Below, one piece after another: positions 27,926-43,372 of a DNA stretch of 64,000 bases. The stretch's first letter is position 1, and each line of letters starts with the position of its first letter. The notes under the pieces are model-generated. The model made no database searches, had not been told where the DNA came from, and saw nothing but the letters and a program-made list of their open reading frames with translations. Position numbers and translations under genes: made by a program. Where the stretch lies: assembly GCA_020354665.1 (NCBI GenBank), contig CP070653.1:2485880-2549879 (forward strand), given 5' to 3'. Source of the DNA: Burkholderiales bacterium (GTDB lineage: Bacteria > Pseudomonadota > Gammaproteobacteria > Burkholderiales > Burkholderiaceae_C).

Positions 27926-28050
27926 TCGGCCTGTGGCGGCAGCGGCGTGCGGGCTCCGGGGGCAGCCGCGCTCGTTAGGCTATCCTCGTTCGCGATGAAT
28001 CCGACGATTCAAACCCGTGGCTCGGTGCACCGCGCAGAACAGCGGGAGCA

Positions 28051-28884
28051 ATGAACGACGCAACCGAAAGAGGCGCCGGCGGCCACTCTCTGCCGCTGGA
28101 GGCGCCGCGGCCGCGCCGCAAGGGCATCTACATCCTGCCCAACTTGTTCACGCTGGCGGCGCTGTTCGGTGGCTTCTATGCGATCGTAATGGCCATGAAC
28201 GGGCGATTCGACCAGGCCGCAGTCGGGGTGTTCGCCGCCATGGTTCTCGACAGCCTCGACGGTCGTGTCGCACGGCTCACCCGCACGCAAAGCGCATTCG
28301 GCGAGCAGATGGACAGCCTCGCCGACATGGTCAGCTTCGGCGCAGCGCCGGCGCTGATCGTCTACGAGTGGGCGCTCAAGGGGCTCGGCAAGCTGGGCTG
28401 GATCGCGGCATTCGTCTATTGCTCGTGTGCGGCGCTGAGGCTGGCGCGTTTCAATACGAACATCGGCGTGGTCGACAGGCGCTTCTTCCAGGGATTGCCC
28501 AGTCCCGCCGCGGCGGCCCTCGTCACTGGCTTCATCTGGGTGGTCGATGACGCTGGCGTGCAGGGCGCGGGCCGGTTCGAGGTGCTCGTCTGGGGCGCGT
28601 TCGCGATGACGTTGTACGCCGGCCTGACAATGGTCACCAACGTTCCTTTCTACAGCTTCAAGGACGTCAACTTCCGCCGCACGGTGCCGTTCATCGTCAC
28701 GGTGGCGATCGCGCTGGGAATCGCGCTGATCACCCTGCACCCGCCGATCGTGCTGTTCGGTCTGTTCTGCGCCTATGGTTTGTCGGGATACGTCGTCTAC
28801 GGGTACCGAAAATCGAAGGGCAAACCGGTCAGCGTGATTGCCACGTCGACCGACGAGCCCGACGAAGCGGGCCTGCACCACTAG
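28051..28884 (+). CDS. pssA: CDP-diacylglycerol--serine O-phosphatidyltransferase
   Basis: 277 aa membrane enzyme making phosphatidylserine. The CDP-alcohol phosphatidyltransferase motif D-G-x2-A-R-x8-G-x3-D-x3-D is complete in DSLDGRVARLTRTQSAFGEQ...MDSLAD (about residues 67-91). About eight helices follow. N-terminal about 25 residues are hydrophilic. A psd gene, sometimes found beside pssA, is not in this window. Separated by 125 bases from ilvC and 281 from the leuA leader peptide. Confidence 0.92.
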   Translation: MNDATERGAGGHSLPLEAPRPRRKGIYILPNLFTLAALFGGFYAIVMAMNGRFDQAAVGVFAAMVLDSLDGRVARLTRTQSAFGEQMDSLADMVSFGAAPALIVYEWALKGLGKLGWIAAFVYCSCAALRLARFNTNIGVVDRRFFQGLPSPAAAALVTGFIWVVDDAGVQGAGRFEVLVWGAFAMTLYAGLTMVTNVPFYSFKDVNFRRTVPFIVTVAIALGIALITLHPPIVLFGLFCAYGLSGYVVYGYRKSKGKPVSVIATSTDEPDEAGLHH

Positions 28885-28920
28885 CCCCCGTCGCTCATCC
28901 CGCGGCCGCGCCCCGAGGGG
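28885..28920 (+). repeat. REP-like intergenic element, copy 1 (degenerate)
   Basis: Starts one base after the pssA stop codon: CCCCC (28885-28889), CGCTCA (28892-28897), then the palindrome CCCCGAGGGG (28911-28920). The same order, CCCCC - GCTCA - CCCCGA(A/G)GGGG, occurs between etfB and etfA (44353-44390). Resembles GC-rich palindromic repeats scattered between genes in Burkholderiales. Could act as an mRNA-end hairpin. Confidence 0.4.
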
Positions 28921-29152
28921 CTCGGCACCGAGACGTTTCAGGCGCGCATCTCGCGGCACAGCCGACGGCGCGGCGGCCAAGCCGACGCGGGGACACGGCC
29001 CTGCGGCATCGTCGGGGCAGGCGGCAGTTCACCAGGATCTGGGCCAGTTGCCGCCTGGCACCTGCCTGCGTGTGCAAGCGCCAACCGTTCATTCGGAAAC
29101 CCCGGAGGAATCGGTTCCAGGCGCTGCCGCTGCGCGAATCGCATGGCCATGC
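28921..29152. other. Non-coding stretch between pssA and the leuA leader
   Basis: No gene seen. Holds a 9-bp perfect inverted repeat, CAGGCGGCA (29018-29026) and TGCCGCCTG (29049-29057), 22-nt spacer, extended by two G-T pairs. May be the end of the pssA transcript or a binding site upstream of the leuA promoter. Confidence 0.45.
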
Positions 29153-29158
29153 TACATT
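29153..29158 (+). promoter_or_regulatory. Extended -10 box before the leuA leader peptide
   Basis: TGCTACATT (29150-29158) has the TG-N extension plus TACATT. It ends 7 bases before the leader peptide ATG, so transcription would start about at that ATG. No convincing -35. Confidence 0.4.
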
Positions 29159-29165
29159 GCGCCCC

Positions 29166-29225
29166 ATGTCGTCGCGACCTGCCTGCCTGCTTTCCCTATT
29201 CCTAGGAGTGCCTCGGGCTCGCTGA
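29166..29225 (+). CDS. Putative leucine leader peptide (LeuL-type), attenuator control of leuA
   Basis: 19-codon frame MSSRPACLLSLFLGVPRAR ending TGA at 29223. Four of six consecutive codons 8-13 are Leu (CTG CTT TCC CTA TTC CTA), two being CTA, rare in this GC-rich DNA. It is followed by a strong terminator hairpin and then leuA. Its last codons (CGGGCT, 29214-29219) can pair with the 5' arm of that terminator (GGCCCG, 29260-29265). This is the arrangement of amino-acid attenuators: ribosome stalling at Leu codons would favour the antiterminator. No Shine-Dalgarno; probably leaderless. Not previously known to me for this organism; inferred from sequence only. Confidence 0.65.
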   Translation: MSSRPACLLSLFLGVPRAR

Positions 29226-29257
29226 TCGCACACGTCTGTTCAACCGAATCTGCATCA

Positions 29258-29295
29258 ACGGCCCGCGAGCAACCTGCCAGCGGGCCGTTTCGCTT
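29258..29295 (+). terminator. leuA attenuator (intrinsic terminator in the leader)
   Basis: Perfect 9-bp stem ACGGCCCGC (29258-29266) / GCGGGCCGT (29280-29288), 13-nt loop, then TTCGCTT. Ends 25 bases before the leuA ATG. The 5' arm can alternatively pair with the end of the leader-peptide frame. Confidence 0.65.
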
Positions 29296-29319
29296 ATGCG
29301 CTTCAACCGGAGCTGACCC

Positions 29320-30861
29320 ATGAACGACAAGCTCATCATCTTCGACACCACCTTGCGCGACGGTGAGCAGTCCCCCGGCGCGTCGATGACGAGGGACGAG
29401 AAACTTCGCATCGCGCGGCAGCTCGAGCGACTGCGAGTCGACGTGATCGAGGCAGGTTTCGCCGCGGCGAGCAACGGTGATTTCGAGGCAGTGCGTGCCA
29501 TTGCCGACCACGTGAAGGAGTCGACGGTGTGCTCGCTGGCACGGGCGAACGACCGCGATATCTCGCGCGCAGCAGAGGCGCTGAAGGGAGCAGCGCGCTC
29601 GCGAATCCACACGTTCATCGCGACCAGCCCCCTGCACATGGAGAAGAAGTTGCGCATGACGCCCGATCAGGTATTCGAGCAGGCGCGGCTTGCGGTGCGA
29701 TTCGCGCGCAATCTTTCCCCAGACGTCGAGTTCTCGCCCGAGGACGGCTACCGCTCGGAGGTGGATTTCCTGTGCCGTGTCCTCGAAGCGGTAATCGCCG
29801 AGGGTGCGACCACGATCAATATCCCCGACACCGTGGGCTACGCGGTCCCCGAGCTTTTCGGCAAGTTCATCCGCACGCTGCGCGAACGGATCCCCAACTC
29901 GGACAAGGCTGTGTGGTCAGTCCACTGTCACAACGACCTCGGCATGGCGGTGGCCAACTCGCTGGCCGGTGTCAAGATCGGCGGGGCGAGACAGGTGGAG
30001 TGCACGATCAACGGGCTGGGTGAGCGCGCCGGGAACTGCTCGCTCGAAGAGGTGGTGATGGCCGTCAAGACCCGGCGCGACTACTACGGGCTTGACGTCG
30101 GGATCGATACCACCCAGATCGTGCCGGCTTCGCGGATGGTGAGCCAGACCACGGGTTTCGTCGTCCAGCCAAACAAGGCCGTGGTGGGCGCGAACGCCTT
30201 CGCGCATGCCAGCGGTATCCATCAGGATGGTGTCCTCAAGGCGCGCGACACTTACGAGATCATGCGAGCCGAAGACGTGGGCTGGTCGGCTAACAAGATC
30301 GTTCTGGGCAAGCTCTCGGGCCGCAATGCGTTCAAACAGCGTCTGCAAGACTTGGGCATCGAGCTCGAGTCCGAAGCCGACGTCAACGCCGCGTTTGCGC
30401 GCTTCAAGGATCTTGCAGACCGCAAGAGCGAAATCTTCGACGAGGACATCATCGCGCTGATGACCGACGAGAGCGTGACCCACGAGAACGAGTATTACCG
30501 GTTGCTGTCGCTCGCACAGCATTCAGAAACCGGCGAGCGACCGCACGCGCGCGTGGCGCTGATGATCGGCGAGACCGAGCACGTCGCCGAGGCGGACGGC
30601 AACGGCCCGGTGGACGCTAGCCTGAAAGCCATCGAGAGTCGGATCCGATCCGGGGCGGAGATGCTGTTGTATTCCGTCAACGCCATTACCAGTGGAAGTA
30701 CCGAGTCGCAGGGCGAAGTGACGATTCGTTTGCAGCTCGGCGGGCGCGTCGTGAACGGCGTGGGTGCCGATCCGGACATCGTCGTCGCCTCGGCGAAGGC
30801 CTATCTTTCCGCTCTCAACAAGCTCCGCAGCCGAGCCGAGCGGGTCGCCGCCCAGGGCTAG
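29320..30861 (+). CDS. leuA: 2-isopropylmalate synthase
   Basis: 513 aa. Condenses 2-ketoisovalerate with acetyl-CoA, the committed step to leucine. HMGL-type barrel with [16 protein letters not shown] near the start and the metal motif [16 protein letters not shown]; flexible linker; C-terminal LeuA allosteric domain (about 390-505) that binds leucine. CGGAG 29308-29312 serves as RBS. Preceded by the leader peptide and attenuator, so it is controlled at two levels. Other leu genes are not in the window. Confidence 0.96.
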
Positions 30862-36817: not shown

Positions 36818-36904
36818 GCGCGGGTGGCGAAATTGGTAGACGCACCAGGTTTAGGTCCTGACGCCAGCAATGGTGTGCGGGTTCGAGTCCCGCCCCGCGC
36901 ACCA
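36818..36904 (+). tRNA. tRNA-Leu (anticodon TAG)
   Basis: 87 nt with encoded CCA. Acceptor GCGCGGG (36818-36824) pairs with CCCGCGC (36894-36900), discriminator A. Anticodon loop TTTAGGT gives TAG at 36852-36854, reading CTA/CTN. Long variable arm as in class II tRNAs; T arm GGGTTCGAGTCCC. The outer anticodon-stem pair is C-A. The tig start codon follows 31 bases after the CCA. Confidence 0.97.
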
Positions 36905-43281: not shown

Positions 43282-43372
43282 GCCCGGGTGGCGAAACAGG
43301 CAGACGCAGCGGACTTAAAATCCGCCGCCCTTGAAAGGGGGCATACCGGTTCGATCCCGGTCCCGGGCACCA
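43282..43372 (+). tRNA. tRNA-Leu (anticodon TAA)
   Basis: 91 nt with encoded CCA. Acceptor GCCCGGG / CCCGGGC, discriminator A, anticodon stem GCGGA/TCCGC with loop CTTAAAA (TAA), long variable arm, T arm CCGGTTCGATCCCGG. GATAAT at 43265-43270 ends 11 bases before the gene and could be its own -10. Decodes TTA/TTG, rare in this GC-rich genome. Confidence 0.97.

Follow-up and report, generated by a model that had tools for sequence, protein, structure and literature searches.

How is expression of leuA, the gene for 2-isopropylmalate synthase and the first in leucine biosynthesis, controlled in the Burkholderiales bacterium whose chromosomal region is analysed here? The window, a 64,000-nucleotide stretch of contig CP070653.1 (GenBank assembly GCA_020354665.1, positions 2,485,880 to 2,549,879 of the forward strand), carries the genes ilvB, the acetolactate synthase small subunit gene, ilvC and pssA upstream of leuA. 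A short Leu-rich reading frame follows closely behind pssA, which has the same orientation. An initial annotation made from the sequence had proposed that this frame and a hairpin behind it form a leucine attenuator. The elements of the locus are as follows.

29150-29158, + strand: extended -10 element, TGC-TACATT, with no conserved -35 (TGnTAnRnT match in relatives)
29166, + strand: predicted transcription start, at or adjacent to the A of the leader ATG (gap of 7 nt to the -10 element here; pyrimidine at -1; no Shine-Dalgarno)
29166-29225, + strand: leader peptide ORF, MSSRPACLLSLFLGVPRAR*, from ATG at 29166 to TGA at 29223-29225, 19 codons (Leu-rich leader kept in 85 distinct relatives)
29185-29189, + strand: candidate segment 1 (protector), pairing with 29214-29218 if ribosome-free (predicted fold)
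29187-29204, + strand: regulatory Leu codons CTG CTT .. CTA .. CTA (CTA in 85/85 leaders)
29214-29230, + strand: segment 2, putative antiterminator 5' side, comprising the frame end and the positions just beyond the stop (fold of 29203-29275; permutation test)
29251-29266, + strand: segment 3, putative antiterminator 3' side, overlapping the terminator 5' arm (fold; core-pair counts; permutation test)
29257-29289, + strand: terminator hairpin (segments 3 and 4), arms 29257-29266 and 29280-29289 (fold energy; relatives; compensatory pairs)
29288-29295, + strand: T-rich terminator tail, TTTCGCTT, weak here (tail T-rich in relatives)
29309-29312, + strand: Shine-Dalgarno of leuA, GGAG (read directly)
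29320-30861, + strand: leuA, 2-isopropylmalate synthase, the controlled gene (NCBIfam NF002087, 904 bits)

Direct reading of 29166-29225 gave the frame as it had been described, with 19 codons and four Leu within six positions, two of them CTA: codons 8, 9, 11 and 13 are CTG (29187), CTT (29190), CTA (29196) and CTA (29202). For a random frame as long as the leader, the probability of four Leu within six codons is 0.007. The comparative evidence for the reality of the leader is far stronger than such within-window chance estimates. Our comparison covered leuA loci of 30 whole genomes plus 80 named contigs, among them Piscinibacter, Rubrivivax, Ideonella, Hydrogenophaga, Polaromonas and Acidovorax, and relied on a codon-blind search, that is, for a -10 element and then a short Leu-rich frame with the codons not specified. 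A leader was found at 88 of the 110 loci (85 distinct), and all of these leaders contained CTA. Across the 85 distinct leaders, CTA accounted for 198 of 393 Leu codons, compared with 9 of 3235 in leuA of the same loci; among the Leu codons of six genes neighbouring the window leader its count was 0 of 203. This points to strong selection for the rare CTA in leaders, while neighbouring genes avoid it. Pairing with the stop codon TAG does not by itself explain why CTA is kept: in leaders that end in TGA, too, CTA is the most frequent Leu codon (51/107). Frame and Leu codons are kept together with the hairpin in the 85 distinct relatives, and the dissociation that the initial annotation had envisaged, a hairpin conserved without them, was not found. 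As a separate observation, a tRNA-Leu with anticodon TAG, the expected reader of the leader's rare CTA, lies at window positions 36818-36904, ∼7.5 kb downstream of the leader, and a tRNA-Leu(TAA) at 43282-43372.

Between the leader frame and leuA, an intrinsic terminator spans 29257-29295 including its tail. Its stem pairs AACGGCCCGC (29257-29266) with GCGGGCCGTT (29280-29289), and the hairpin has a folding energy of -24.1 kcal/mol (z -4.3). Hairpin and T-rich tail were correctly recognized at the outset, whereas the stem, described there as a perfect 9-bp GC stem, is 10 bp long by direct reading. The terminator was present in 84-85 of the 85 relatives, the figure depending on the criterion, with compensatory pairs across the set (A-U 28 and C-G 27; G-C 48 and A-U 9). 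As the hairpin is located in the gap after pssA, it could in principle be a mere terminator of the upstream ilv-pssA genes, with the Leu frame present by chance. However, the frame, the CTA codons, the -10 element and the antiterminator are all conserved, and elsewhere the unit precedes leuA2, a second isopropylmalate synthase gene. The leader-terminator unit stands in front of leuA, or of a leuA2-leuA pair, in the 85 distinct relatives. Where leuA2 lies in front of leuA, as in part of the family (L031, L040, L051, L054, L062, L068, L085, L100 and others), the leader is found before leuA2, ∼1.8-2.1 kb upstream of leuA. Moreover, a separate leuA2 locus (L191:563-673), in a genome that also has a leuA locus, carries its own copy of the attenuator, MNRLALSLLLSAHGRRR. 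Conservation and the position before leuA2 therefore rule out a chance hairpin or an ilv-pssA terminator, a reading to which we assign a negligible probability.

Segment 2, with CGGGC close to the frame end, has the same sequence as segment 4 and can pair with segment 3. In the window, the predicted fold yields a 14-bp antiterminator (29214-29218 with 29261-29265, 29220-29221 with 29259-29260, 29223-29226 with 29254-29257, and 29228-29230 with 29251-29253); the pairing of 29214-29219 with 29260-29265 that had been proposed is thus possible, but the stem extends further. Segment 3 overlaps the terminator 5' arm, consistent with the earlier claim that the two stems are mutually exclusive. Across relatives, the antiterminator core is 85% paired yet nearly invariant, and core pairing alone therefore says little. 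Between the core halves there is a further stem, formed in the window by TGAT-GCA with TGCATCA and in relatives by other pairs, for example GATCG with CGATC. In a swap test, we compared the pairing energies of species-matched and swapped antiterminator halves over 5000 permutations. For 78 sequences, cognate halves reached -4.6 kcal/mol compared with -3.7 kcal/mol for swapped halves, and 0 of 5000 permutations were as good; for the window lineage, the values were -6.0 and -4.7 kcal/mol (again 0/5000). The larger lineage of leaders ending in HGRR was not decisive by itself (460/5000). Together, these comparisons indicate that the predicted antiterminator (2:3 stem) co-varies across relatives. 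Compensatory changes, which the initial annotation had suggested looking for in both stems, are seen in the terminator pairs, and covariation in the antiterminator swap test. The 1:2 protector pairing in the window is a predicted fold with a weak z of only -1.05, and the pairing between segment 2 and the region of the Leu codons co-varied to some, modest extent across relatives. Leaders of the HGRR type (for example L085:1090-1202) also carry TAGCGCACGCG, strongly conserved across the stop codon; it is able to form a small inner antiterminator hairpin, which accounts only partly for its strict conservation.

The start of the leader transcript was approached from the promoter. In 83 of the 85 relatives, TGnTAnRnT occurs upstream of the leader ATG, with 6-9 nt from its end to the ATG. 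We also assembled a promoter-blind set of 66 loci by searching for a CTA-containing Leu frame and a downstream terminator, with the promoter not required. Here, 66/66 leaders had the element, with its end 6-8 nt upstream of the ATG; among control ATGs the count was 0 of 1774. A pyrimidine lies directly 5' of the leader ATG in 76/85 relatives. A Shine-Dalgarno in the usual position is absent from all 85 leaders but present at 74/85 leuA genes. From the fixed -10 spacing, the absence of a Shine-Dalgarno and the pyrimidine at -1, we infer a transcription start that very probably coincides with or adjoins the leader ATG, giving a leaderless mRNA; both sequence features expected of such an mRNA, a -10 spacing that fits a start at the ATG and a missing Shine-Dalgarno, were found. 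The suggestion of a leaderless leader peptide, first drawn from the -10 box of the window, thereby gains comparative support. The same attenuator might instead lie on a leadered mRNA that starts farther upstream or arises by read-through from pssA, with the frame initiated otherwise. Such an arrangement would agree with the closeness of pssA upstream in the same direction, with the lack of a conserved -35 box among the relatives' leaders and with a simple consensus scan, which called neither a promoter nor a terminator at the window leader. The scan missed both elements because there is no -35 box and because the terminator loop exceeds the maximum of 8 set in the scan. Nonetheless, the extended -10 fixed in every promoter-blind leader, the frequent pyrimidine and the consistent absence of a Shine-Dalgarno make a leadered mRNA unlikely.

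The locus thus combines a leader frame with end-product codons, an intrinsic terminator and a predicted antiterminator that includes the frame end and excludes the terminator. Overall, conservation, rare-codon bias and covariation of both stems support the proposed ribosome-mediated leucine attenuation before leuA, and we are confident, on this sequence evidence, in a model in which a transcription attenuator with a leaderless leader peptide senses charged leucyl-tRNA: with a start at or next to the leader ATG, the first ribosome would load on a leaderless mRNA. When leucine is ample, it would reach the stop codon at 29223 and cover segment 2, leaving segments 3 and 4 to form the terminator before leuA. 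When leucine is short, the ribosome would stall on CTG CTT..CTA..CTA and leave segment 2 unoccupied; segment 2 would then pair with segment 3, no terminator would form and leuA would be transcribed by read-through. The CTA codons, being very rare, probably let the switch respond early, and their use fits the Salmonella leu leader, where sensitivity drops once CUA is replaced with CUG (Carter et al. 1986, as cited in PMC1183508). Stalling could also be caused by the nascent peptide, not by the supply of charged tRNA, as C-termini such as PRAR or HGRR were seen repeatedly among relatives. However, it is the antiterminator segment CGGGC that encodes these residues, and the leader peptides differ widely in length and sequence among relatives while the CTA bias remains constant, so that we consider an arrest peptide very improbable. 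Attenuation by charged-tRNA supply on a leaderless mRNA raises the question whether leaderless initiation sets the timing of attenuation.

To place the unit in the family, a covariance model of the attenuator was used, built from 57 sequences, one of which is that of the window, whose own match is therefore by construction. The model matched 189/201 family genomes and 136/141 genera; ∼20 matches were weak, with E around 1e-7 or higher, and the weakest, with E near 0.005, could have arisen by chance, so that 189/201 should be read as a maximum. Because the compared sequences are related, the counts are not independent. The best 30 matches were all directly upstream of leuA or leuA2. The attenuator is compact, about 110-140 nt, and dozens of natural variants exist. 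The result is a leucine attenuator nearly universal in one betaproteobacterial family and absent from Rfam and from the open papers searched.

At E<=5, an Rfam cmscan of window positions 28000-30500 matched neither the enterobacterial leucine operon leader nor any other relevant family, and a scan of 14 order-level loci likewise gave nothing relevant. No description of a betaproteobacterial leuA attenuator was found in the open literature, and the main text of an openly available survey of premature terminators makes no mention of leuA. The kind of switch is therefore known, whereas a leaderless leucine attenuator family of Betaproteobacteria was not found described in Rfam or the open literature. 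The comparison with E. coli leu attenuation drawn at the outset holds, as the enterobacterial leu attenuator operates identically in principle: leuL of E. coli and Salmonella has a short frame with several Leu codons in a row, CUA among them, an antiterminator and a terminator that compete, and control of leucine synthesis. In contrast to leuL, the window unit has no sequence match in Rfam, its leader has no Shine-Dalgarno and is seemingly leaderless, and in the window's family only leuA or leuA2-leuA lies downstream. A leaderless leader peptide had been called an unusual form, which it is, although precedents exist. In Sinorhizobium meliloti, the trpL transcript (rnTrpL) begins at the leader peptide ATG and likewise combines a leaderless leader with a terminator (PMC7298713); it differs in serving tryptophan and trpE(G) in alphaproteobacteria. 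In Streptomyces lividans, leaderless Leu-rich leader peptides (leuL) precede leuA and leuS (PMC8079986). These resemble the window unit in placing a leaderless Leu-rich leader before leuA, as does the actinobacterial LEU element at leuA, which has no intrinsic terminator and whose Leu codons were proposed to pair with the leuA Shine-Dalgarno (PMC1262725). Unlike this element, the window unit has a terminator, kept throughout nearly all relatives, and a predicted antiterminator.

Upstream of leuA, other Burkholderiales families carry a different, likewise seemingly leaderless leader that ends in LLLR(P/L)AR* and lies 4-9 nt (mostly 6-7) behind a -10 element. This second form was first noticed in loci not selected for it, and a pattern search of 300 genomes then found it in 30, nearly always immediately before leuA. 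Its Leu codons are mostly CTG, with CTA at 1 of 204. Just 7/27 cases showed a T-run terminator, the 35 nt past the stop are C-rich and G-poor (0.37 vs 0.14), and a small GC hairpin lies across the stop codon. Rho is a possible output of this form and is offered here as a lead. Similar ends and starts of the two leader forms suggest a possible common ancestry. We distinguish type A, the window's family, with an intrinsic terminator and CTA codons, from type B, with the LLLR(P/L)AR* end, CTG codons, mostly no T-run terminator and the C-rich, G-poor post-stop stretch. A tentative reading, which we consider less likely than its opposite, would derive both from one ancestral leaderless leuA leader across Burkholderiales, with two outputs (type A, and type B perhaps through Rho) and the ATG start built into the switch. 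If true, an mRNA start at the ATG would couple ribosome loading to promoter escape. The two types also raise the question of how an intrinsic-terminator and a terminator-less switch originated on a similar leader. The second form was observed at loci L112, L114, L115, L117, L118, L120-L123 and L125-L127, and at L132-L146, L148-L153 and L155-L160.
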